Source: Actinomycetota bacterium (GTDB lineage: Bacteria; Actinomycetota; Thermoleophilia; RBG-16-64-13). Taken from it: a DNA stretch of 64,000 nucleotides. Every line of letters begins with the position of its first letter. The first letter of the stretch is position 1. Both the position numbers and the translations under genes were made by a program. Of this stretch, positions 290-39,078 are shown in pieces. Where the stretch lies: NCBI GenBank assembly GCA_018830645.1, contig JAHJSA010000023.1, positions 71,482-135,481 on the forward strand. The letters run 5' to 3'. The notes under the pieces are model-generated. The model was not told the origin of the DNA and did no database searches. It saw only the letters and a list, made by a program, of their open reading frames with translations.

Positions 290-1777
290 CTACCGGCCGG
301 TCTGCGCCTCCAGTTCGCGAGCAGCCACGATCTCGTCGAGCCTGGCCTCCACAGCCGCGTCCAAGGGGATCGGTCGATGGCTCTCGAGCAGCGCCCTGGC
401 GATGTCGTACGCGCGCTCGGCGGCCGTGCGGGAGCCGTCTCGCTCCCAGATCTCCCGGGCCTTCCGGTCGAAGAGACTCGACGAGCTCATCTCGCGCATG
501 TGCTCGAACGTGTGGTCGTGGCTCACGTACTCGCCGCCCGGGCCGACCTCCTCGATGACCTTCAGGGCCGCGTCGAGCTCACTCATGTCGATGCCCTGGG
601 TGACCCTGCGGATGCGTCCCGCCTGCTCGGCGCCCATGATCATGGAAGCGTAGTCGAAGGTGATCAACGACTCGATCGCGCCGATGCCGTACACGATATT
701 GGCGCCGGCCAACGCGGCGGGCATGGCGGTGAGGGTGAAGTCGTACCCCTGTTGGGCGTCGGGCAACTTACTGTCGGTCGCGCCGGCTCCGGCCCAGGAA
801 GGGATGCCGTAGCGCTGCGCCAGCTGCACACTGGCCACCGAATGCAGGGCCATCTCGGGTACGCCCACGGGGGACGCGCTCCGAAGCAGGTCCATGATCG
901 TGCTGTTGTTGGCCATCATGCACGGGGTCCCCGGGCGGACTATCTGAGCGAGCACGATCGCACTCAACACCTCGGCGTTGTGCTGCACCACGACACCAAC
1001 GGGCGTGGCCGGCGACGATGCCCCAGACAGCGACATGGGATGCATGGCCATACCGACCCCGCGACTGGCCGCCTCGATCAGGGCCGAGGTGCACTCGGAG
1101 ACCAGTCCCAGCGGGCTCGTGGGACACAGAAGGCACGTCACGATCGGTCGTGCGCGGAGTTCATCGGCGCCGCCTGCGACCGCTTCGGCCATGTCGATGA
1201 TCGCGCCTGCGTTGTCGCCGCCGTTGAAACCGAGGAACACGTGCTTGCTCGTGCCTCGGACCATGGCGTCGTAGTTGTGCACCGACTGCACCGCGGTGGG
1301 CTTGTCGCCCGAGCAGGCGGCCCGCTCGACGAAGCTGATGATGTCGAGCGCGTCCTGGAGCCGGGAGATGTCGGCAAGGTCCTGCTTGGTCGTGGAGCGC
1401 AGTTCGTACGTGTACGGATCGACGATCCGCACGTGCTCCCCGTAGCCCGCGGTGTAGCCCGTGACACCCGGTTCGAGGAGGAAGTCGTCCTCCGGCCGGC
1501 GCCCGCACAGCGTGAAACTCTCCGGAGCGGCCGCGATCGACTCTTCCACGAGTGCGGCCGGCATCCGGACGAGAAACTGATCGCCCTGCGCTTCGACGGT
1601 AGCGCCTCCCTTTCGGAATACGTCGGCCGCCTCGGGATCCTCCACTCGCACCCCAACGTTCCACAGCACGTGGAGGGTGGCCTGGTGTAGAGTCTCGATC
1701 TCGTCAGGCTCGAGTCCCAGCAGGCTCCACCTGCCTCGGCCCGGACGCCTCGATACGTGTGCTGATGTGTCTGCCAT
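290..1777 (-). CDS. MttB-family methyltransferase without pyrrolysine (MttB-1)
   Basis: A 495-residue protein of the trimethylamine methyltransferase superfamily (TIM-barrel; methyl transfer from an N-methylated substrate to a corrinoid protein). The column that holds pyrrolysine in true MttB is Ala here (context AGATDSKLPDAQ), so it belongs with the non-Pyl members, some of which demethylate glycine betaine, proline betaine, carnitine or butyrobetaine. The substrate cannot be read from sequence. The start was set at the ATG at 1775-1777, which follows GAGGGCGGG and gives the usual family N-terminus; a longer open frame runs through a tandem repeat and is unlikely. It follows the Pyl-containing mttB gene on the same strand. 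It ends in TAG, with an in-frame TGA four codons later. Confidence 0.9.
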   Translation of the reverse strand: MADTSAHVSRRPGRGRWSLLGLEPDEIETLHQATLHVLWNVGVRVEDPEAADVFRKGGATVEAQGDQFLVRMPAALVEESIAAAPESFTLCGRRPEDDFLLEPGVTGYTAGYGEHVRIVDPYTYELRSTTKQDLADISRLQDALDIISFVERAACSGDKPTAVQSVHNYDAMVRGTSKHVFLGFNGGDNAGAIIDMAEAVAGGADELRARPIVTCLLCPTSPLGLVSECTSALIEAASRGVGMAMHPMSLSGASSPATPVGVVVQHNAEVLSAIVLAQIVRPGTPCMMANNSTIMDLLRSASPVGVPEMALHSVASVQLAQRYGIPSWAGAGATDSKLPDAQQGYDFTLTAMPAALAGANIVYGIGAIESLITFDYASMIMGAEQAGRIRRVTQGIDMSELDAALKVIEEVGPGGEYVSHDHTFEHMREMSSSSLFDRKAREIWERDGSRTAAERAYDIARALLESHRPIPLDAAVEARLDEIVAARELEAQTGR

Positions 1778-1859
1778 GATCCCGCCCTCGTCGTCAGCCG
1801 TCGATGTGCCTCGCGGTGGGCGCCGCCACAGCCGGCCCGTCGCCGCTGCTACCCCTGCG

Positions 1860-1927
1860 CCACCACTGCCCTCTCGCCACCACTGCCCTCTCGCCACCAC
1901 TGCCCTCTCGCCACCACTGCCCTCTCG
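1860..1927. repeat. Four perfect 17-bp tandem repeats upstream of MttB-1
   Basis: The unit ccaccactgccctctcg is repeated four times without change, followed by a partial fifth copy. It sits in the 226-bp gap between the two mttB genes. On the minus strand each copy carries GAGAGGG, a purine tract resembling a ribosome site. Such perfect repeats suggest recent slippage; a regulatory role is unproven. Confidence 0.95.
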
Positions 1928-2003: not shown

Positions 2004-3467
2004 TCAGCCCACTCGGCGCTTCACGTCGGCGAAGACGGCTTCGGCTTCCGCCGAGATCGGAGCCACCTGATGGGTGGCGAGGATCTCGCGGGCAACGGCG
2101 AGAGAACGGGCGTGGAGGTCTTCGGCTCCCCGCTTCTCCCAACTCGAACGCATGCGCCGGTCGATGACCTTCACCTTCGACTGCTCGCGCAAGGCGAGCG
2201 CCCGGGTGTGCTTGGCCCGCATGAAGTGGCCATCGGAGCCCACCTCCTTGATCACATCGATGCCCATGGTCTCGCGGTCGAAAAGGATGCCCTCCAACAC
2301 ACGGCGGTTCATGAGCGCGAACTCGTTGTCCATGACCATCTGACCGAAATCGAACGTCAACCCTAGCTCCAGCATCCCCATCCCATAGATCAGGTTGGCC
2401 CCTGCCAACGCTGGTAACAAACTGGTGATGGTCTTCTCGTGGCCTGCTTGAGCGTCGGGTAGCTTGCTGTCGCCCTAACCGCCCGCTACCCAGCAGGGCA
2501 GATAGTAGAAGTCGCTCATCTCGGCCACGGCCGTGGAGATCATGGCGAGCTCGGGTGCGCCCACCGGGGCGGTGGCGTACGTCATGTCGAAGGTGGTGGT
2601 GCTGCTGCCATATATGACCGGAGCCCCCGGCCGGGTGGCCTGGGAGAGCACGATGCCGGAAAGCACCTCGGCGTTGTGAGTGACCAGCGACCCTGAGAGG
2701 CTGATAGGTCCAGACGCTCCCGCCATGGCCATGGAGAGCACGTTCACCGGCACCTCGTGCCGGGCCCCGTACATGATGGACTCGGTCGAGGCCGTGTGTA
2801 GCTGAAGGGGACTCGTGGGACAGGTGTTCAGTGAGAAGAGTGGGCGCTCGCGCAACTGATCACGCCCTCCCGCCACCGCGGAAGCCATTTCTACCAGGAG
2901 TTCCACGTGCGCACCGCTGTTGGCCCCCATGTGGATGTGCTTCGTGGTGTTCCGCATGCAGGTGTCGAGCACGTAGATGTCATGGGCGTGCTCGGGGGCC
3001 CCTCCGGGAGTGAGGGCACGCTCGTAGGTGTTGGTCATGTCCATCGCGTCGCAGAGGCGCGCGCTCTGAGCAAGGTCCTCCAGAGTGGAGTCGCGCAGTT
3101 CTCCGCTCTCCGGGTCGACGACCTTGGTGCCCTCGCCGAAGTTGGTGTAGCCGACCACCCGGCCGCCCATGAGATAGTCGCGCTGCCCATCTCGCGAGGC
3201 AAGGAGGATCTTCCCTGGGGCTGACGCGACAGCGTCTTCCACCACGCTCGGCGGGAAGCGAACCATACTCGTGGCAGTATCCACGGTGCAGCCGGCCTTG
3301 GAGAGCACCTCGTGAGCCTCTTCGCCGGCCACCTTGATCCCCACCTCGGAGAGCACCTCGAGAGTCGCCTGGTGCACGGCTTCGCGGCCCTCGTGGCTCA
3401 AGAGTTCGAAGCGGAGCCTGGGAACTCCGGCGTCGTCGTCGCTCCGCGGTTTGTCTCTGAAGCTCAT
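2004..3467 (-). CDS. mttB: Trimethylamine:corrinoid methyltransferase with in-frame amber (pyrrolysine) codon
   Basis: One 487-residue protein read through TAG at codon 331. The parts on each side are in the same frame and both align with MttB-1 without a gap: upstream ends DFYYLPCWVAGG, then amber, then GDSKLPDAQAGHE. In Methanosarcina barkeri MttB pyrrolysine is residue 334 in the same surroundings, and full length matches the family (about 495). The C-terminal part (LAGANLIYGMGMLE, FDFGQMVMDNE) is typical of MttB. It would demethylate trimethylamine, methylating a cognate corrinoid protein. ATG at 3467 has GAGGAGG six bases upstream; the true stop is TGA. It lies 83 bp below a dipeptide-type ABC ATPase gene. 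Standard gene callers will split it into 330- and 139-residue pieces. Confidence 0.93.
2475..2477 (-). other. In-frame UAG, predicted pyrrolysine codon of mttB
   Basis: Plus strand reads CTA, minus TAG. It is flanked by uninterrupted coding sequence in one frame and falls in the alignment column occupied by pyrrolysine in archaeal MttB (Ala in MttB-1, Gly in MttB-3 of this window). Confidence 0.92.
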
Positions 3468-3550: not shown

Positions 3551-5332
3551 CTATATGGTCGGTGTATCCGAAAGCAACTTGCGGGTGTAGTCGGCTTGGG
3601 GGTCTTCCAGCACCTTGTCGACAACGCCGGCCTCGACGATGCGCCCCTCGCTCATCACCGCGACCTCCTGGGCGATGCTCCGCACCAGAGCCAGGTTGTG
3701 AGTGACGAACAGCATGCTCAGACCGGTCTCGTGCTGCAGTTGTGCAAGAAGCTCGACGATCGCGGCCTGCACGGAGACGTCGAGCGAGGAGGTCACCTCG
3801 TCGCAGATGAGCACGGTGGGCTCTGCGGCGAGGGCGCGGGCGATGGCCACGCGCTGGCGTTCACCGCCGCTCAGCTCGTCGGGGTATCGGCGAAGCACCG
3901 ATGTGTCCAGGGCCACCTGCACGAGGGCGGCGGCCACTCTGTCGTCGGTCTCGCTCTTCCCGATGTCGAAGAACACACGCAGAGGCTGCGTGAGGATCTG
4001 TCGCACAGACTTGCGCGGGTTGAGGGAGCTGTAGGGGCTCTGAAAGATGTACTGGATCGTCTGCCTGGTCGCCTGGTCGCGACCGCGGGCGTCGCGGGCA
4101 AGTTCCGTGCCACGGTACTTGATGCTGCCTTCGATCTTGAACGGATGCAGTCCGGCCACGCACCGGGCCAGCGTGGTCTTCCCGCTGCCGGACTCGCCGA
4201 CCAAGGCGATGCAGCGGCGCGTGTGGAGGTGCAGAGTGATCTCGTGCAGCGTCTTCTTCTGCCCGTAATAGGCCGAGACATCGCTCACGGCGATCACGTT
4301 CTCGAGAGAAGGGTCGAACTGGACACGTTCCTCGCCGCGTTGACCCGCCCCCATCGGCTCCGCCCCCACCTCGGCGAAGCGCCAGCACCTCACCTGATGC
4401 TCTGGACCGGGACCGTCCACGGGCGGGAACTCGACCCGGCACTTGTCGATAGCCCAGTCACATCGAGGCTCGAACGAGCAGCCCTCCGGCCGTCGTCCCG
4501 GACGGGGCGCCGATCCGGGGATCCCGCGAAGCGCCCGGCATCCGCTCAGATCGGGGATCGCGTCCAGGAGTCTCCGCGAATACGGGTGCAAAGAGCGCGT
4601 GAAGAGATCGTTCCGGGAGCCCACCTCGACCAACTTGCCCGCGTACATCACCGCGATGCGGTCGGCGAGGTTGGCCACCACCGCCAAGTCGTGAGTTACG
4701 TACAGGGCGGCGACCCCGTACGCCTGGGTGAGCTTCTTCACCGTCTCGAGCACGTGGGCCTGCGTGGTCACGTCGAGAGCAGTGGTCGGTTCGTCCAGAA
4801 CGATCATCTTCGGACGGCATGCGAATGCCATCGCCACGGCGACCCGCTGCTGTTGGCCTCCTGAGAGCTGGTGCGGATAGCGGCGGAGGAACTGCTTGTC
4901 TGAGGGCAGCAGGACCTCGGTCATCATCTCCGTGAGACGTTCGCGCCGCGCAGCGTCCGAACCACCGAAGTCGTGAGCCTCGAGGATCTCCACGAGTTGG
5001 GTGCCGATGCGGAGAGCGGGGTTGAGCGAGGCCGAAGCATCCTGCGGCACGTACGAGATCAAACCACCCCGAAGCTGCCGCAATGCCTCGGGAGCGAGGG
5101 TGAGCACGTCCTTGCCGTCGATCAAGACTCGGCCATCCGCTATCTTGGCTCCCCGCCTCTGGTGGCGAAGCAGCGCGGTGGCCACTGTCGTCTTGCCCGA
5201 CGCGGATTCGCCCACGAGCCCGAGCACCTCACCCGCGCGGATCGCAAACGACACTTCATCGTCGATGAAGGTGCCAGACGGGTCGAGCACGATCTTGAGG
5301 CCGTCCACAGCGAGAACAACCTGCCCGCTCAC
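3551..5332 (-). CDS. Fused two-domain ABC ATPase of a dipeptide/oligopeptide-type importer (DppD-DppF-like)
   Basis: A 593-residue protein with two complete ATPase domains. The first has Walker A GESASGKTT, signature LSGGQQQR and Walker B IVLDEPTTALD. The second has GESGSGKTT, LSGGERQR and VLICDEVTSSLD. Between them lies the oligopeptide-ABC C-terminal region with its Cys pair (GCSFEPRCDWA). Start is GTG at 5330-5332, which overlaps the TGA of the upstream permease remnant by four bases; the longer open frame merely runs through that permease in another frame. Ends in TAG. The permease is truncated and no binding protein remains, so the importer is probably non-functional unless partners lie elsewhere. 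Confidence 0.9.
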   Translation of the reverse strand: MSGQVVLAVDGLKIVLDPSGTFIDDEVSFAIRAGEVLGLVGESASGKTTVATALLRHQRRGAKIADGRVLIDGKDVLTLAPEALRQLRGGLISYVPQDASASLNPALRIGTQLVEILEAHDFGGSDAARRERLTEMMTEVLLPSDKQFLRRYPHQLSGGQQQRVAVAMAFACRPKMIVLDEPTTALDVTTQAHVLETVKKLTQAYGVAALYVTHDLAVVANLADRIAVMYAGKLVEVGSRNDLFTRSLHPYSRRLLDAIPDLSGCRALRGIPGSAPRPGRRPEGCSFEPRCDWAIDKCRVEFPPVDGPGPEHQVRCWRFAEVGAEPMGAGQRGEERVQFDPSLENVIAVSDVSAYYGQKKTLHEITLHLHTRRCIALVGESGSGKTTLARCVAGLHPFKIEGSIKYRGTELARDARGRDQATRQTIQYIFQSPYSSLNPRKSVRQILTQPLRVFFDIGKSETDDRVAAALVQVALDTSVLRRYPDELSGGERQRVAIARALAAEPTVLICDEVTSSLDVSVQAAIVELLAQLQHETGLSMLFVTHNLALVRSIAQEVAVMSEGRIVEAGVVDKVLEDPQADYTRKLLSDTPTI

Positions 5333-5460
5333 ACGTCCGCCCTCCGTTCGATCCCGATGAGGGCCCTTCCCATACCGTCGGCAATCAAGTTCGTGCCGAT
5401 CGTGAGGATACCGATGAGCAGCACCGGGAGCGCGACCGCCCACGGCTGCACCGACGTATC
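5329..5460 (-). pseudogene. C-terminal remnant of a DppC/OppC-type ABC permease
   Basis: About 43 codons can be read in frame up to a TGA coupled to the ATPase start: TSVQPWAVALPVLLIGILTI and then GTNLIADGMGRALI. This is the last transmembrane helix and the N-L-x-G-D-G-x-R/x-A-L end typical of DppC. Sequence upstream of about 5460 no longer resembles a permease and soon enters the AlbA_2 gene. The remnant marks the left edge of an insertion or deletion that removed the rest of the importer operon. Confidence 0.8.
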
Positions 5461-5490
5461 CCGCACACAAGCCGGTGCGGGGCAGGGGGC

Positions 5491-6753
5491 TCACAGGCTC
5501 AGCGCGGCCTGTCGCCCAGGCTCCGCAGCCGCCCAGATGGTCAGCAGTAGCTCAGCATCGTCGATCAATCTGTATTCCGGCTCGTGCCCGCTCAGTTCGG
5601 TGCTTTCCGCCAGGATGATCGGGACGCCGTCGCCTCGCTTCTCCATAAAGTACTGGCGGCCGACTCCCGACGGCCCCACTACAGGGCTACGCGTCAGGAG
5701 TCCGGCGATGAGCTCATTCCGTGTCGCTTGACGCAAGGCCATGCTCTCCACGGTAACCGAATTGGGCGGCGGTCCCGGCGAGAATAGCTCCAACCGATCA
5801 TCGAACAAGAACAGTCGGATCTTCGAGCCGTGTACGGCGTAATCGCGGTGGGCAACGGCATTCACCAACGCCTCGAACACCGCACGCGTGCTGTACTGGG
5901 GAAGCTCCACCCTGCCGGGTGCCTTGACGGCTGCGATCGTCATGTTGCGCTCCACAAAGGCCAGGGCATCACGCACCTGCTGATCCAGCGGACCGGTGAT
6001 CTGGTGGGCGTCGATCTGGTAGTTCGAATCCTGCCGGTTCCCGCGATAGCGCACGGCCTCGATGTAGGCGCTACGAAGCCAGTTTTCCGGTGCGTGGGTG
6101 CACATGAGGATCGCGGCGACAGTGGCCCTCTCAACACCCGTATCGTCTTCCGTCAGGAGATGGAGCTTCCGGAGCGTCTCCACGGGATCGGCGGCCGTAT
6201 CACCAACAAAACGCTGCCACAGGGCGGGATCGAGGTCAGACAGGCTCGTGGTCGGCACGGCCTGCTCATCGAACCGAATGAGTCGGGCCTGGCTTCGTTG
6301 CTGAAAGAGGCGGGCCAGAAAGTCGGGCGGAAGCTTTCGCTTCGAGCTGCCCTGTCTCTGAAAGTACCCTCCGGGGCTTTCGTGAACGAATAGGCTGCGT
6401 GGAACGTCAACCTTCATCACTACCTGGGGGGTTCCGGTCGCGTCCGGAAGCTCCAGGCGGAGCGTGCGGAACGCCACTGGCGGTTTGATGCTGTCGCAGC
6501 ACACCTCGAACACGAAGTGTTCCACCGCATCCAGCGACTCTCGGGGGATGCCCACGATGTCGCGCGTCTTGTCGTCAACGCCCAGGACAAGCACCGAATC
6601 TGCCGTGTTGGCCATGGCCGCGATCTCGTCGGCTAGGTCGTCACGCGGGGGGTCCGATACCCGCCGGCCCTTCATGGTCACGGTCTTGAGCTCGAGCAGC
6701 GAGTCCTCCCCAAGATTGATCTTTCGAAGCAGTTCTTCCGGACTATCGAACAT
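5491..6753 (-). CDS. AlbA_2 / Schlafen-like and RecG-like ATP-binding domain protein
   Basis: A 420-residue protein. The N-terminal 120 residues resemble the AlbA_2 domain (acid-rich ELKTV, then ADEIAAMANT and VLVLGVDD). The C-terminal half matches the ATP-binding domain found in the so-called RecG-like regulators (FEALVNAVAHRDY, then KIRLFLFDDRLELFSPG). Proteins of this kind occur in mobile and defence islands; biochemical roles vary. Its ATG overlaps the TGA of the PHP-SMC gene upstream by one base, so the two are translationally coupled. The 3' end lies about 30 bp from the truncated permease. Confidence 0.8.
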   Translation of the reverse strand: MFDSPEELLRKINLGEDSLLELKTVTMKGRRVSDPPRDDLADEIAAMANTADSVLVLGVDDKTRDIVGIPRESLDAVEHFVFEVCCDSIKPPVAFRTLRLELPDATGTPQVVMKVDVPRSLFVHESPGGYFQRQGSSKRKLPPDFLARLFQQRSQARLIRFDEQAVPTTSLSDLDPALWQRFVGDTAADPVETLRKLHLLTEDDTGVERATVAAILMCTHAPENWLRSAYIEAVRYRGNRQDSNYQIDAHQITGPLDQQVRDALAFVERNMTIAAVKAPGRVELPQYSTRAVFEALVNAVAHRDYAVHGSKIRLFLFDDRLELFSPGPPPNSVTVESMALRQATRNELIAGLLTRSPVVGPSGVGRQYFMEKRGDGVPIILAESTELSGHEPEYRLIDDAELLLTIWAAAEPGRQAALSL

Positions 6754-10982: not shown

Positions 10983-12389
10983 TCAGCCGAGCCCGCCCAT
11001 CTTGCGCTTCAACCGCTCCACCGACGGAATGGTGACCCCGAGCAGATCGGCAATGCGCGCTTTCGCCTCCAGACCGCGTGCCGCGCCCGGCACAGACGTC
11101 AACACCCCGATGTCGAGTTCCTCACGCAGTTCCCTCATGGTCACCTCATCGGACAGCTCGCGCGTGCCTACATGGAGTTTCTCTGCCACATACGCCTTCG
11201 CCTCGGGGAGTCGCATCTTGCGGTGGAGTTGCATCCTCGCGACCAGATCTCCGGCCGTGCGGATGCCCCCCATCCCGGAGGCAAGCGCATGTGAGATGGG
11301 CATCCCGTAGGGATCGCCCGAGCCCACCTATAATCCGTCGACGCGACCGATCTTCACCATCGCGACCGACGCCCGCGTGACCATGCTTGTGGGCGGGGTC
11401 TCGCACATCGGAACACCACCGACCCCGATCCCCACGTTCGCGTGAACGGGGATGGTGGCTGCCTCGGAACATGCCTTGACGAAGGTGACCGCCCGAGACA
11501 CGTTCCAGGCAGTGGACCTGCGCGTGTTGGTGTTCACCACCGGGCCAAAGATGTGAGCCCCGGCCTTCTCGACCAGCTTGACCTGCTGGTGGGGATAGAG
11601 GCCGGCGAGGCGCTCCCCATCGTACGTGACCTTGCCGTGCATACCGAGCACGAACTCCGCGGCCATGCCCACCTCGATCGACAAGTCGGTAGTGCGCGCC
11701 AACTCTTCCACGGCGTTCAGTGTGGCGAGGAACTCGGCGTCCCCGGCCGACGCCGTGGTGTCGAAGTTGAAGCCGTCGGCCCCAACTTCAGCCATGCGTT
11801 TCCCGATGTAGACCATGTCGCGCGTACAGGCTTCAGCCGCCTCCTCCTGCGCGGATCGGGCTTCGTCGATCTTACCCATGGGGAGGAGATCCGCCGGGTT
11901 GCCGAACGGGCCGTCGGGCCGTGCGTACAGTGCGAGGTTGGGCATCGCCCCGTAATACATGGGGATGATGGTGGTGTGCAGCACGCTCTCCATCGCCTGG
12001 AGTTCCAGCGCGATGATCGGCTTGACGGGCTTGAACGAGTAGTCCGGGTGACCGACCTCCATGGTGTCCATCGCGAACGCCCGCTCGTACACCCTGATCG
12101 CCGACTCGCGGCTGATGGGCACACCGACCCCGCTGGAGCTCTGAGCTCCATAGAGCGCGTTCACCGAACCATCGTCGGTCAAGACCACCTCATCACCCGG
12201 CACCACACCCACGATCTTCCCTTCGAAGGTGAAGAGATCGAGCAGATAGTCCTGCTCCCCTTGGCTGAGGGCTGGGATCTTGCCCCTATCGGCGGCGTCT
12301 TCGGTGCCGGCGAGGATGTCGGCACGGATCTCGTCGACGGTCATCTCGACCGCGTGACCGTCGCCCATGCGTGTGTAGATCTTCGTCAT
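10983..12389 (-). CDS. mtbB: Dimethylamine:corrinoid methyltransferase with in-frame amber (pyrrolysine) codon
   Basis: One 468-residue protein read through TAG at codon 354. In M. barkeri MtbB pyrrolysine is residue 356 and total length is about 467. Around the amber codon the sequence reads KIGRVDGL[15 protein letters not shown], followed by [19 protein letters not shown], the expected MtbB C-terminus. The N-terminal part ([45 protein letters not shown]) also fits. It would transfer a methyl group from dimethylamine to a corrinoid protein. ATG at 12389 has GGAGG ten bases upstream; the true stop is TGA. It lies 146 bp downstream of the corrinoid-mttB3-dehydrogenase operon, same strand. A naive annotation gives two fragments. 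Confidence 0.95.
11328..11330 (-). other. In-frame UAG, predicted pyrrolysine codon of mtbB
   Basis: Plus strand CTA, minus TAG, preceded by TTA and followed directly by GTG in the same frame. Position and flanking residues (VDGL before, VGSGDP after) match the pyrrolysine site of archaeal MtbB. Confidence 0.94.
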
Positions 12390-12535: not shown

Positions 12536-13270
12536 TCAGCCCTCCCACCCCCGCACCGCTTCTATGACGCAACGCAGTTGTCGCTCGAACGCCGCCTCGG
12601 TCGCCCACGCGACGTGGTCGGTCACGACGAGAGCCCCGGCCTTGAGGCGCAGGAACTCGTCCGGACCCAGCACAAGCCCCGCTTCCCCGGGCAGGTGAAG
12701 CGTCATCACCGACGCCGGCTCTAGCACCCGCGCGAGTGGCACCGACTCGATGCCTTCGAGGGGTCGCCTTGAGACCGCGAGTACGTCGCAGCCGAGGGCC
12801 ACGAGAACGGCGGCGACGCGGCGGCCGATACCCCCGAGCCCGATCACTCCCACAGTACGCCCGGATAGCTCCCCACCCAGGCTTCCGGACACCTCGCCCA
12901 GTCCCCCGGAGACACTGCGGCGGATCTGCCGGCCTCTCAACAGGTGAAGAAGGAACGCAATGGTGAACTCGGCCACGGCCCCGCTCGAGTAGTCGCCGGC
13001 GTGGGTGACTACCACGCCCCGCTCGGCGCAGGCTCCCAGGTCGATGTGATCGAGACCCGCGGTGCGCGAGACCACCGCGCGCAAGCGGGGCAGACGTTCG
13101 AGTTCGGCGGTGCCAACCCTCGAGCGCACCTCGACGATCGCCATCTCGCACTCAGGGTGATCCCGAGCACGCTCATGCAGCGTGCGCGGCTCGAGCCGGA
13201 CCCTGCTCCGCACGTCGGCCGGGAGACCCGCCGACTCGGCCGCCGTCACTTCGAACAGCACGAGGCTCAC
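12536..13270 (-). CDS. 2-hydroxyacid dehydrogenase-like protein with internal deletion, probably inactive
   Basis: A 244-residue relative of D-isomer 2-hydroxyacid dehydrogenases. It keeps the Rossmann motif GVIGLGGIGRRVA and the N-terminal region, but against the paralogue at 21532-22410 it lacks about 48 residues between ALVV and TDHVAWAT. The missing block carries the family's catalytic Arg (NTAR in the paralogue) and Glu (WETEP); only the His of TDH remains. The frame is intact, so this is an in-frame deletion and not a frameshift. GTG start at 13270 overlaps the stop of the mttB-like gene upstream by four bases (GTGA), suggesting translational coupling. It may be decaying or may have become a non-catalytic NAD-binding protein. 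Confidence 0.8.
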   Translation of the reverse strand: MSLVLFEVTAAESAGLPADVRSRVRLEPRTLHERARDHPECEMAIVEVRSRVGTAELERLPRLRAVVSRTAGLDHIDLGACAERGVVVTHAGDYSSGAVAEFTIAFLLHLLRGRQIRRSVSGGLGEVSGSLGGELSGRTVGVIGLGGIGRRVAAVLVALGCDVLAVSRRPLEGIESVPLARVLEPASVMTLHLPGEAGLVLGPDEFLRLKAGALVVTDHVAWATEAAFERQLRCVIEAVRGWEG

Positions 13271-14697
13271 TTGGCGTTCAGATCCGCCCGCGCCTCCGCG
13301 ATCACCTCGTCGATCTCGCGCTCGATGTCGTCGGAGAGCGGCTCCACCACGTGAGTGGCAAGGATCTCGGTCACCCGGGCTCGAGCGTGCTGCTGGATGG
13401 TCGGCCGACCCTCCCTGTCCCAATCGCTGTAGTTCCGGCGGTCGGACAGTCGCGGCGTCCACACTTCGCTGGCTCTCATGAACTTGCGTGTATGGTCGAG
13501 GGCGAGGAATCCGCCTTCGCCCATGACCGCTTCATGGATCGCCGCGACGCCGAGCGCGTCTTCGTCTACTTGGATGCCACGCATGAACCTCGTGACCCAT
13601 GACATGATCTCGTCGTCGAGCACGATGAGTTCGGCCGACGTGTGGATCACGTTGTCACCCGCGCCCAACGAGGCCAGGACATTGGCGCCGGACTGAGCCG
13701 CGGGGAGAAGCGTGAGCGCGCGCTCGAAGCCGTTCTGATCGTCCATGGCCCGAGCGCTCGAGCCGAATGCCGTGACGCTGCCGGGGATCTTGTAGTAGCG
13801 CGCCATCTGCGCCGTGGCCACGGACATGAGGGCGACCTCGGGGTTGCCCCAGATGCTCTGTCCCGTGCGCATGTCCATGACCGTCGGCCGAGGCTCGTAG
13901 AGGATGGGCGCGCCCGGGTTGACCACCTGGGCGAGCACGAGTCCCGCCAGGATCTCGGCGTTCTGCTGCACCAGGGTGCCGGCAATCGACATCGGGCCGG
14001 TGGCTCCCACGATCGGCGCGGGGATCACTCCCAAGGGCACGCCCGCGGCAGCCGCCACCATCAGGGCCCGGGTCGAATCGCCCGACAAGGTGAGCGGACT
14101 CAGCGGGGACACGGAGATCTGCAACTGGGGGCGAGACACCATCGCCTCCATGCCTCCGTGGACCGCGGCCGCTATCTTCAACGAGTAGCGGACCTCATCG
14201 CCCGACTCCACCGCCACCCTGAGCGGCTTCGTAGTGTTCCTGAACATCGTGGCCACCCGCACCGGGGTCACGATCTCGGGCTCCACGTCTTTCGGCGTGG
14301 CCGGGGACGCCATGTGCGTGTTGGGAAGCGCGTCGACGAGCCGAGTGAGGTCGGCGACGTCCTTGACCAGGGCGTGGCGTCGCTCCCCCGTCTCATGGTC
14401 GATGACGAACGGGCTCCCGGTGGTGGAGAGCGTGTAGAAGCGGCCCGGCACAAGGGGGCAGTCGTGCTCGGGCGTGCGCCCGCACAGGGTGAACTCCGCT
14501 GGGCTCGACTCTACCGCCCTCGCGACCAAGTCCGCCGGGAAGGTGACGCGCTCCCCGCGCACACCGCAGCCGGCCGCCTCAAGCCGTTCGCGAGCGTCCG
14601 CATCTTGGATGAGCATGCCCGTGCGCGCCAAGACCTCTAGAGTCGCCGCGTGTATCCCGTCCAGATCCTCGGAGCTGAGCACCTCGAAGAACTTCAT
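13267..14697 (-). CDS. MttB-family methyltransferase without pyrrolysine (MttB-3)
   Basis: A 476-residue MttB superfamily protein, shorter and more divergent than the other two. The pyrrolysine column is Gly (context TAFGSSARAMDDQ) and the DSK motif is lost, so its substrate is likely a quaternary amine or another N-methyl compound. Family features include FTLCGRTPEHDC, VQQNAEILAGLVLAQVVNPG and LTLLPAAQSGANVL. ATG at 14697 has GGGAG eight bases upstream. It is 25 bp below the corrinoid protein gene and overlaps the dehydrogenase gene, so methyltransferase and corrinoid partner are co-transcribed. Ends in TGA. Confidence 0.9.
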   Translation of the reverse strand: MKFFEVLSSEDLDGIHAATLEVLARTGMLIQDADARERLEAAGCGVRGERVTFPADLVARAVESSPAEFTLCGRTPEHDCPLVPGRFYTLSTTGSPFVIDHETGERRHALVKDVADLTRLVDALPNTHMASPATPKDVEPEIVTPVRVATMFRNTTKPLRVAVESGDEVRYSLKIAAAVHGGMEAMVSRPQLQISVSPLSPLTLSGDSTRALMVAAAAGVPLGVIPAPIVGATGPMSIAGTLVQQNAEILAGLVLAQVVNPGAPILYEPRPTVMDMRTGQSIWGNPEVALMSVATAQMARYYKIPGSVTAFGSSARAMDDQNGFERALTLLPAAQSGANVLASLGAGDNVIHTSAELIVLDDEIMSWVTRFMRGIQVDEDALGVAAIHEAVMGEGGFLALDHTRKFMRASEVWTPRLSDRRNYSDWDREGRPTIQQHARARVTEILATHVVEPLSDDIEREIDEVIAEARADLNAK

Positions 14698-14722
14698 GCT
14701 GTGCACTCCCTTCTTGGCAGTC

Positions 14723-15376
14723 TCAACGGATCCCGGCCAGTTCCCGGGCGACCTCGACCGCACGGGCGGCGTCGGGCGCGAACCCGTCGGCCCCTACCCG
14801 GTCGGCCCAGTCCTGATCGATGGGCGCGCCTCCGAGCAGCACCTTGACCTTCGAACGCAATCCGGCCGCCTCGAGCGCCTTGATCACGGCTTCCTGTTGG
14901 TGCACGGTGGTGGTGAGGAGGGCGGACAACCCGAGGAACGCAGCTTCGGTATCCCGCACCTTGTCCACAAAGACCTCTACGGGCACGTTCACCCCAAGAT
15001 CGTCCACAGCGAAACCCGAAGCCTTCAGCATCGCGGCGACGATGTTCTTCCCGATGGAGTGAAGATCGCCGTGCACGGTGCCGAGCACGATCCTCGCGTG
15101 GGTGGGCCTCTCCTCGCCCGCGCCCGCCAGCAGCGGCTGGAGCACCTCGAGCCCGATCTCCATCGACTGCGCACCCCGCACGAGATCAGGCAGGAAGTAC
15201 GCACCCTTCTGGAATTCCTCACCCACGCGCCGGATGCCTTCAGTCAGGCCCTCGCTGACGATCGTGAGAGCCGGAAGCCCTGCTTCAAGGGCCTTCTCGG
15301 TCAGCGACTTCACCAACGATGGCTCGCCGTCCAGGACCGCAGCCCGGATCTCGGCCAGTAACGCTTCGGTGTCCAT
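14723..15376 (-). CDS. Methyltransferase cognate corrinoid protein (MtbC/MttC family)
   Basis: A 217-residue protein with an N-terminal four-helix cap domain (about 1-90) and a B12-binding Rossmann domain. The cobalt-ligand motif D-x-H-x-x-G is present as GDLHSIG with His106, followed by LGVNVP and LGGAPIDQDW. It accepts methyl groups from MttB/MtbB-type enzymes and passes them to a second methyltransferase. It is the only corrinoid protein in the window, so the four methyltransferases either share it or use others elsewhere. First gene of a minus-strand operon with MttB-3 and the dehydrogenase; divergent from the PucR gene. ATG at 15376 follows a G-rich tract (AGAGGGGG). Confidence 0.95.
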   Translation of the reverse strand: MDTEALLAEIRAAVLDGEPSLVKSLTEKALEAGLPALTIVSEGLTEGIRRVGEEFQKGAYFLPDLVRGAQSMEIGLEVLQPLLAGAGEERPTHARIVLGTVHGDLHSIGKNIVAAMLKASGFAVDDLGVNVPVEVFVDKVRDTEAAFLGLSALLTTTVHQQEAVIKALEAAGLRSKVKVLLGGAPIDQDWADRVGADGFAPDAARAVEVARELAGIR

Positions 15377-15414
15377 CCAAGAAACCCCCTCTGTCTACGA
15401 AGACTCCCGCACTC

Positions 15415-15433
15415 TGGTGTCAGCGTAACACCA
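15415..15433. promoter_or_regulatory. Inverted repeat in the corrinoid/PucR divergent intergenic region
   Basis: TGGTGT-cagcgta-ACACCA is a perfect 6-bp inverted repeat with a 7-bp spacer. It lies 39 bp upstream of the corrinoid gene start and 123 bp upstream of the PucR start. PucR-type regulators often control divergent neighbours, so this is a candidate operator. No clear -35/-10 pair was identified nearby. Confidence 0.4.
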
Positions 15434-15555
15434 CCTGGACGAGCCATCCATGTGGCAAACCCCAGAAGGGCGGGTGGACGAGGGTCTGCTCTTGTGCCAC
15501 CATACAATGCAGCCGATGGGAAGAACGCGACGGCCCCGAGGGGAGCAGAACACGC

Positions 15556-17247
15556 GTGACCGTGACAGTCCGCCAAGCACTTCAGACGTGGCCCTTGACT
15601 CAGGCGCAACTGCTTGCGGGTGCGCGGGGCCTCGACAACAAGATATCTTGGACGCACATCGTCGAGATCTTCGAAGACCCCTACTTCCCCTCCCCGGGGA
15701 TACTCCTCTGCAGTACCGGCTATGGGTTCAAGGACAACCCGGATCTGCAGGCCAGCGTGATGGCACACGTCGGCGAGGTAGGCATCGCCGCCTTCCTCAT
15801 GAAGACGGGCTACGAGCTCAAGGAGATACCCGACCGCATGCTGGCCGACGCGGAACGGTTCTCGATCCCCTTCCTCAAGCTCCCCCAGAACATCCCGTTC
15901 GTGGACGTGACGAAAGCGGTTGCCGGCCTGCTCCTGGAGAAGGACGCGGAGATTCTGAAGCAGGGGCAAGAGATCCTACGCCGGCTGATGGAGGCCCAAT
16001 TGAGTGGAGGCGGGTTCTCTGCGATAGCCCAGGTCCTCGGCGAATCCCTCTCCTGCTCCGCCTTCATCACCAACCGCAGGGGCGAGATGCTCTCCACCTA
16101 CTTGCACCTCTCGTCCCAGAACTCGGCGTCTCTTCCGCCGGCCGAACCCGGCGATCCTTCGGTCATCATGCACCTGAAACACTATTCACAGAGGATCGGA
16201 GCGGCCGCCGGGCTCGACAGGCTCTTCCGACTGAACAAGATAGTCTCCCTCGATTCAGGGCTGGGCGCGGGTCAGAAGGCGGCGTTCATCGCTCCCATCC
16301 ACTTCGAGCACCGCATGCGCGGTTTCGTCGGCGTGATCCGTGATCAGAAGATGACCGACCTCGCACTCTGGGCGATCGAGGCGGCCGGCCTGGTTGCCGC
16401 CACCGAGTACCGCACCCTGCGAGTGGAGGAGGTAACCGAACAGCGTCTGGTGGGAAACCTGCTCGACACGCTCATCAACCACGACCAACTCTCCGACCCG
16501 CTGGCGTTCCACCGCTTGGCGTCCTGGGGGTACGACGTGAGCATGCCCTGCCGCATCGTGCTCGTGGAGATCGAGTTCGAGGGCGGCACGCCGCGAAAGG
16601 AACGCTCGATCGAGTACCTGCGACCTTTGGTGGAGCTCTATTGCCGGAGTTCCGACTACGAGCCCGTGATACGTTTCCTCGGCCCGACTTCGATAGCACT
16701 GAAGCAGGTGGCGCGTGACGATGAGGCATGCGAGCGCAAGGAACTCGCGGACTTCCACACCCGGCTCACCCGTCACCTCCGCACGGCCAAGGTGTGGGTG
16801 GCGGTGGGTCGGCCGGCCCCGCCCTTGTCGGGGCTTCGAGCGACCCACGCCGAGGCGACGCGTGCGATGACCATCCTCCGCCGAACCCAGTCACACGGCG
16901 GAGCACTCTGCGCTGAAGACCTCGGCATCGACAACGTGCTCCTCGACCTGGCGACCTCCGATAGGGCGCTCGAATATGCCCGCGGCGTCCTCGCCCCTCT
17001 GCTCGAATCGGAGGGCGTTCGCGGGCGTTCGCAGCTTCTCGCGACTCTCCAGGCGTACCTCACCGTGGACGCCGACACGCAGAAGACCGCAGATCGCCTC
17101 TTCGTTCACGCGAACACCGTCAGGTACAGGCTCAAGACCATCGAGGGACTCACCGGCCGCTCGCTGCAGTCGAGCAACGACCGCACCATACTCACCATCG
17201 CTCTGCGTCTGCTCGACCTGAGCGACACCCCGTCGGCGGGCGCCTGA
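15556..17247 (+). CDS. PucR-family transcriptional regulator
   Basis: A 563-residue protein. The N-terminal PucR ligand-sensing domain spans about residues 1-125 (LTQAQLLAGARGLDNKIS, GILLCSTGYGF). A middle sensor-like region follows, and a C-terminal HTH_30 domain carries TADRLFVHANTVRYRLKTIE. Family members activate purine or amine catabolic genes in response to a metabolite. GTG at 15556 follows GAGGGGAG and gives the usual PucR N-terminus; a GTG two codons later is an alternative, and the much longer open frame is non-coding. It is divergent from the corrinoid-mttB operon and convergent with the polyamine-type importer, so it probably regulates one or both. Confidence 0.9.
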   Translation: MTVTVRQALQTWPLTQAQLLAGARGLDNKISWTHIVEIFEDPYFPSPGILLCSTGYGFKDNPDLQASVMAHVGEVGIAAFLMKTGYELKEIPDRMLADAERFSIPFLKLPQNIPFVDVTKAVAGLLLEKDAEILKQGQEILRRLMEAQLSGGGFSAIAQVLGESLSCSAFITNRRGEMLSTYLHLSSQNSASLPPAEPGDPSVIMHLKHYSQRIGAAAGLDRLFRLNKIVSLDSGLGAGQKAAFIAPIHFEHRMRGFVGVIRDQKMTDLALWAIEAAGLVAATEYRTLRVEEVTEQRLVGNLLDTLINHDQLSDPLAFHRLASWGYDVSMPCRIVLVEIEFEGGTPRKERSIEYLRPLVELYCRSSDYEPVIRFLGPTSIALKQVARDDEACERKELADFHTRLTRHLRTAKVWVAVGRPAPPLSGLRATHAEATRAMTILRRTQSHGGALCAEDLGIDNVLLDLATSDRALEYARGVLAPLLESEGVRGRSQLLATLQAYLTVDADTQKTADRLFVHANTVRYRLKTIEGLTGRSLQSSNDRTILTIALRLLDLSDTPSAGA

Positions 17248-38981: not shown

Positions 38982-39000
38982 CTCCCAAGCACCTCTCCTT

Positions 39001-39078
39001 CGGCAGTCCGGCCACCTGATTCACTCAGGTCCGTGACTTTGCGCCCCCACCTCACGATGGGTTTGCCTTTGTCGGGAT
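39001..39078 (-). promoter_or_regulatory. Cyclic di-GMP-I (GEMM-I) riboswitch
   Basis: The minus strand carries the conserved GEMM-I elements in order: AAAGGCAAACC, a hairpin CCCATC-GTGA-GGTGGG closed by a GNRA tetraloop, GGCGCAAAG, CACGGACC, a second hairpin ACCTGA/TCAGGT, and GGCCGGACTGCCG. The GNRA loop would dock on the receptor formed by the second stem, as in the Vibrio Vc2 RNA. The 3' edge lies 20 bases from the ATG of the secreted hydrolase gene, next to its AAGGAGAGG ribosome site, so control of translation start is likely; no terminator with a U-run is visible. It links surface polysaccharide turnover to c-di-GMP. Confidence 0.94.

Follow-up and report, generated by a model that had tools for sequence, protein, structure and literature searches.

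A gene for a trimethylamine:corrinoid methyltransferase (mttB) in the window analysed here, a stretch of 64,000 nucleotides of Actinomycetota DNA, contains an in-frame amber codon which, judging from sequence, is very likely to be decoded as pyrrolysine (Pyl). The genome holding the window (G000; 3.87 Mb in 112 contigs, 99.84% complete; window at contig C11:71482-135481) also carries pylT, pylSn, pylSc, pylB and pylC, and comparison with a genus-mate (G050; about 30 contigs, estimated to be 100% complete) points to purifying selection on the protein-coding genes of this set. We found pylD in neither genome, and it appears to have been lost in the genus. The unexpected element is this absence of pylD with the remaining pyl genes retained.

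The mttB gene occupies positions 2004..3467 of the minus strand, on which the original prediction was silent, running from an ATG at 3467 to a TGA at 2004-2006 and encoding 487 residues plus stop. The TAG at codon 331 (2475..2477, minus strand), the predicted Pyl codon, is its sole internal stop. Two open frames had been interpreted as one mttB split by this codon, and the interpretation holds: the frame is open on both sides, and the joined protein scored 653 bits with the Pyl-MttB equivalog model TIGR02369 (cut-off 525). It also aligned with the solved MttB chains 7xcm and 7xcl over residues 21-479 (390 and 387 bits, respectively). In the alignment with 7xcl, an archaeal MttB from Methanosarcina barkeri, the Pyl residue (printed X) stands opposite residue 331, which confirms the predicted placement of the amber codon in the pyrrolysine column. 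We take 7xcl to be the Methanosarcina MttB structure described in PMC9842639. The available part of that paper names Pyl334 in the structure and the imine as the point where trimethylamine attacks.

The placement of the codon was further examined among the paralogues of G000, where 14 MttB-family places exceeded the PF06253 cut-off. A single in-frame TAG is present in each of three of them, all located on C11, and in none of the other 11. When the 14 were aligned, the three TAGs fell in one column, which is occupied by A, G, T or L in the remaining 11; their placement is thus not due to chance. This agrees with the earlier argument that a random nonsense mutation would be improbable at this very position, for which we calculate about 0.002 per gene (1 codon of 487). 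The four methylamine methyltransferase genes of G050 that were compared in frame with G000 all have their TAG at the matching codon.

The second Pyl gene of the window, mtbB, encodes a dimethylamine:corrinoid methyltransferase (10983..12389, minus strand; 580 bits, cut-off 369) and has its in-frame TAG at codon 354 (11328..11330, minus strand). In total, C11 carries seven amber-containing genes for methylamine methyltransferases, namely three mttB, three mtbB, and one mtmB. Two of the seven lie within the window, and the methylamine cluster also holds corrinoid-protein genes and an MtbA-like gene, the latter named by eye. Directly upstream of mttB lies a gene for a fused dipeptide/nickel-type ABC transporter ATPase pair (3551..5494, minus strand), whose own stop is TAG. 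On the other side of mttB, an MttB-family paralogue without the amber codon (290..1900, minus strand), called MttB-1 in the original prediction, has Ala in the Pyl column, is 39% identical to mttB, and scored 507 bits against the Pyl-MttB cut-off of 525.

The expectation that the genome would encode pylT, pylS, and pylBCD was borne out with the exception of pylD. A tRNA search placed pylT (tRNA-Pyl, anticodon CUA) at C11:59789-59860, and protein searches detected PylSc (284 bits, cut-off 178), PylSn (102 bits, cut-off 51), the methylornithine synthase PylB (440 bits, cut-off 348), and the ligase PylC (312 bits, cut-off 248), for which the nearest solved structure is 4ffl. All five genes lie on the same strand of C11, about 14-17 kb from mttB. 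Consequently, both pylT and pylS, whose absence from a complete genome had been named as evidence against Pyl, are present in this nearly complete one. In a scan of named genome contigs, PylSc had six loci, the top one in "Actinomycetes bacterium isolate LH_M24" (87% identity), with "Thermoleophilia bacterium isolate FR_37" second and "Actinomycetota bacterium isolate Soudan_30" third. The host is accordingly taken to be an actinomycetotal bacterium not yet in culture.

From these genes, we infer a scheme that extends from tRNA charging and Pyl insertion to catalysis and a substitute enzyme. The split PylSn/PylSc synthetase, whose genes lie about 14 kb from mttB, would charge the tRNA-Pyl that reads UAG 331, giving full-length MttB. 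The residue inserted at position 331 would most likely be pyrrolysine, so that Pyl would be present in the MttB protein, and its ring imine would bind trimethylamine and hand the methyl group to a corrinoid protein. PylB and PylC would convert two lysines into 3-methylornithyl-N6-lysine. The final oxidation is normally performed by PylD, according to the available part of PMC11467909. With PylD lost in the genus, the closing oxidation of 3-methylornithyl-N6-lysine might be carried out by another, unrecognised enzyme. Such a substitute, possibly a non-homologous dehydrogenase or oxidase, is our tentative explanation of why pylD is dispensable. With less than even confidence, we favour a history in which Pyl came to be finished by a PylD-unrelated enzyme encoded outside the pyl operon and the operon subsequently lost its pylD by deletion.

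The absence of pylD was assessed in a class sample of 299 genomes, of which 19 encode PylS. PylD was present in 17 of these 19, and the two exceptions were G000 and G050, the only genomes of their genus among the 18 of the family in the sample. With the TIGR03911 model, nothing exceeded the cut-off in G050 or in G000, where the best match reached 20 bits. We also built a class-specific profile from 13 PylDs of the class, with two further PylDs held out as a check. The profile recovered the held-out proteins at 276 bits and, for a gene in two pieces, at 170 and 157 bits, while in G000 and G050 it gave only Rossmann-type matches of at most 28 bits. These are comparable to the 26 and 33 bits obtained in the PylS-free relatives G014 and G020. 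Because pylD was not found, the cassette is not classed as a complete pylTSBCD system. Moreover, no complete Pyl pathway is demonstrable without PylD, and G000 and G050 may therefore not make Pyl themselves.

Next to pylC, the two genomes differ from their relatives and from each other. In the PylD-bearing relatives whose clusters were read, pylD adjoins pylC; in G008, which like G080 belongs to the same family as G000 and to a different genus, the order is pylC, pylD, and a symporter gene. In G050, pylC directly adjoins an SSS symporter gene with no pylD between them, and in G000, it is followed by an EamA-like transporter gene. Between pylC and this transporter, on the right strand, G000 carries a 23-codon stretch (C11:56102-56170) similar to the PylD C-terminus. 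It scored 6.5 bits with a PylD profile extended to the C-terminal ends and 0.2 bits with the first, shorter profile. None of 2000 Markov shuffles reached the score; nine of 2977 random windows did, (nearly) all of them at the common Rossmann motif and none at the C-terminal end. The sequence thus supports, without proving, that this scar is a trace of a pylD deletion. A similar scar was sought in G050 and not found, and downstream of pylC, up to the gene that follows, the two genomes have no similar DNA, the homology stopping just after pylC. Accordingly, pylD may have been lost once, with later change at the site, or twice.

These data also bear on the possibility that the organism has a pylD which both assemblies missed, for instance on a plasmid or elsewhere in an unassembled or unbinned piece. 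Both genomes are drafts in many contigs, and the end of the homology right after pylC would be compatible with a gene that had moved rather than vanished. Against this stand the completeness of the two genomes (99.84 and, as estimated, 100%) and the fact that both contain an intact operon without pylD at the place where it adjoins pylC in the relatives, in stretches read without a single N. We regard a missed pylD as unlikely, though deserving serious weight.

The genes that remain show signs of constraint. Between G000 and G050, dN/dS was 0.11 for pylB, 0.16 for pylC, 0.18 for pylSc, and 0.08 for pylSn, and it ranged from 0.05 to 0.11 in the four in-frame comparisons of TAG methyltransferases. 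In all four, dN was lower than dS both before and after the TAG. The comparison comprised 19 genes, of which 16 were usable (mtbB_a and mtbA were out of frame, and carB was matched to a non-orthologue), and the comparisons of mttB_b, mtbB_b, and mtbC extend a few codons beyond the stop. In both genomes, the genes read for the Pyl pathway and those with TAG were free of frameshifts and extra stops. Together, the low dN/dS and the intact genes fit continued use of the Pyl system, and they are also compatible with a very late double loss.

Under such a loss, with pylD gone only recently and perhaps on two independent occasions, the Pyl system would be defunct or in decay, and the TAG genes would no longer be read through. 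The different sequences after pylC, with the scar and the EamA-like transporter in one genome and the SSS symporter in the other, would fit separate deletions, and a low dN/dS also averages over the time before any late loss. However, in addition to the intact reading frames, the identities of PylC and PylB to those of G080 (59 and 77%) are no lower than between the two PylD-bearing relatives G080 and G084 (58 and 75%). We consider decay improbable.

Slightly more doubtful still is that the cell imports pyrrolysine, or swaps precursors with its neighbours, rather than finishing Pyl. A transporter gene directly follows pylC in both G000 and G050, as uptake would suggest, but a symporter gene also follows pylD in the PylD-bearing G008. 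Furthermore, uptake would leave the purifying selection on pylB and pylC without a reason.

The residue inserted at UAG might also be something other than pyrrolysine, such as the unclosed product of PylC or another lysine derivative. At the positions we took to form the substrate pocket, the PylSc motifs resemble those of the PylD-bearing relatives and of D. hafniense PylSc, and near the pocket strand the genus has two neighbouring changes of its own (L to F and G to E). These changes and the loss of the ring-forming enzyme would agree with a different residue. The otherwise unchanged pocket motifs argue against it, as does the published mechanism of MttB, where reactivity resides in the imine, as far as given in the available part of PMC9842639, and we judge it very unlikely. 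A seeming acceleration of PylSc evolution within the genus was rejected, being significant with G084/G008 as outgroup and not with G024, G048, or D. hafniense. Finally, an ordinary nonsense mutation or sequencing error at TAG 331 can practically be dismissed, given the single column shared by three paralogues, the TAGs at the same codons in the G050 methyltransferases, and the presence of pylT and pylS.

Returning to the preferred reading, that of a PylD-unrelated finishing enzyme, we examined three candidates for a PylD substitute in G000 and G050, and none held up. The aldehyde:ferredoxin oxidoreductase module beside the pyl cluster of both genomes was rejected because every one of the 19 PylS-encoding genomes contains several to many copies of PF01314, and because a homologue is present in all four PylD-bearing clusters from another family of the class. 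Proteins of the saccharopine/lysine-dehydrogenase type (PF03435) were found in 7/7 family genomes searched, two of which lack PylS, and are thus not specific. The third candidate, a genus-specific NAD-binding protein encoded at window positions 12536-13270 (minus strand), was rejected as a likely substitute. The orthologue and paralogues of this protein look like ordinary D-2-hydroxyacid dehydrogenases and are encoded in a catabolic operon, together with genes that by eye resemble those for an ABC importer and a TPP decarboxylase. The protein itself is missing an internal segment (VNTAR motif) that is kept in the G050 orthologue and in a paralogue near 21.8-22.4 kb, and the gene is either a decaying copy or one of changed function. 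Because the hydroxyacid-dehydrogenase fold is distantly common to PylD, a slim chance is left that it acts as the substitute.

The system can be placed among those already described. Like Pyl-MttB of M. barkeri (7xcl/7xcm; TIGR02369), the protein aligns over its full length, at 387-390 bits, with UAG and Pyl in the same column. It differs in its bacterial (Actinomycetota) host, in the split PylSn/PylSc, and in its corrinoid partner, which is known here only as a neighbouring gene. As in the bacterial pylTSBCD cassettes of Desulfitobacterium and Bilophila, described in the available parts of PMC11467909 and PMC7593587, pylT, pylSn, pylSc, pylB, and pylC are clustered with methylamine methyltransferases; unlike in those cassettes, pylD is present in neither genome of the genus. 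A parallel in phylum, gene kinds, and amber truncation is provided by the Pyl-containing mttB and mtbB of Actinobacteriota from Stordalen Mire, which are reported as expressed in the accessible part of PMC10805028, where pylD does not come up. That of PMC11764691 counts two actinobacterial PylRS. Since a Pyl-dependent mttB in Actinomycetota has thus been published, the mttB gene itself is of a known kind.

TAG methyltransferases and pylTSBC that are under selection without pylD would imply either an unknown pyrroline-forming enzyme or a 22nd amino acid that is being lost or shared. We know of no alternative route to this amino acid so far, and a PylD-unrelated finishing enzyme, if it exists, would to our knowledge be the first. 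It would also be useful for making Pyl and its analogues. A literature search that covered few subscription journals found no lineage with pylTSBC and without pylD, which does not prove novelty. Wherever the literature found describes the biosynthesis, for example in the available part of PMC11467909, PylB, PylC, and PylD form the pathway to pyrrolysine.

The role of UAG in normal termination was evaluated in the stretches read of each genome by means of a simple gene caller based on codon usage, with the first halves of Pyl genes included in the counts. TAG ended 51 of 121 genes in G000 (C11:1-135481) and 32 of 71 in G050. The shares were 16/42 in G080, 27/43 in G008, and 9/16 in G084, while two PylS-free members of the family had 15/28 and 14/24. 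Four genomes from a different family of the class had 5/11, 6/13, 4/11, and 2/14 genes ending in TAG. The background share of TAG among stop triplets is 21-29%. In G000, the frame stays open for 80 codons or more beyond the TAG in 20 of the 51 TAG-ended genes, Pyl genes included, and pylSc and some corrinoid-protein genes on C11 themselves end in TAG. Thus, UAG is a favoured stop in the family with or without PylS and, being so common in this role, is not reserved for Pyl. A Fisher test of the TAG share in the genus against the PylS-free relatives gave p of about 0.04; it used estimated Pyl-gene counts (7 and 6), and we do not rely on it. According to the available part of PMC3941956, amber stops are scarce in Pyl-using archaea, with a share of at most 11% in the order examined there, and bacteria depend on regulation instead of amber avoidance. 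With about 40% of its genes ending in UAG, this lineage would offer a sharp test of Pyl insertion alongside termination.

A match to Rfam RF02510 (PYLIS_3) begins at the mttB TAG (2378..2477, minus strand), and PYLIS matches occur at the TAG in all seven amber methyltransferase genes of C11. Because the TAG-less paralogue matches as well, we rejected the elements as proof of Pyl insertion and count them as no independent evidence for Pyl. The match at mttB mainly reflects coding conservation.

Several further features were observed in the window and around it. Within the methylamine cluster, C11:46989-50684 contains aldehyde:ferredoxin oxidoreductase, ferredoxin-like, and FAD-oxidoreductase genes. 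The aldehyde:ferredoxin oxidoreductase family has 15-17 matches per genome in the genus, pointing to heavy use of tungsten or molybdenum enzymes. Also within the G000 cluster, C11:43700-46978 holds a gene that by eye resembles carB, for the large chain of carbamoyl-phosphate synthase; it is absent from the corresponding 60 kb of G050. At window positions 13267-17247, a further non-Pyl MttB-family gene is accompanied by a corrinoid protein of its own and by a divergent PucR-type regulator, with an ABC importer nearby, and this is probably another methylated-amine catabolic operon. Last, a c-di-GMP-I-GGC riboswitch aptamer was detected at window positions 38998-39076 on the minus strand (72.9 bits, gathering threshold 59).
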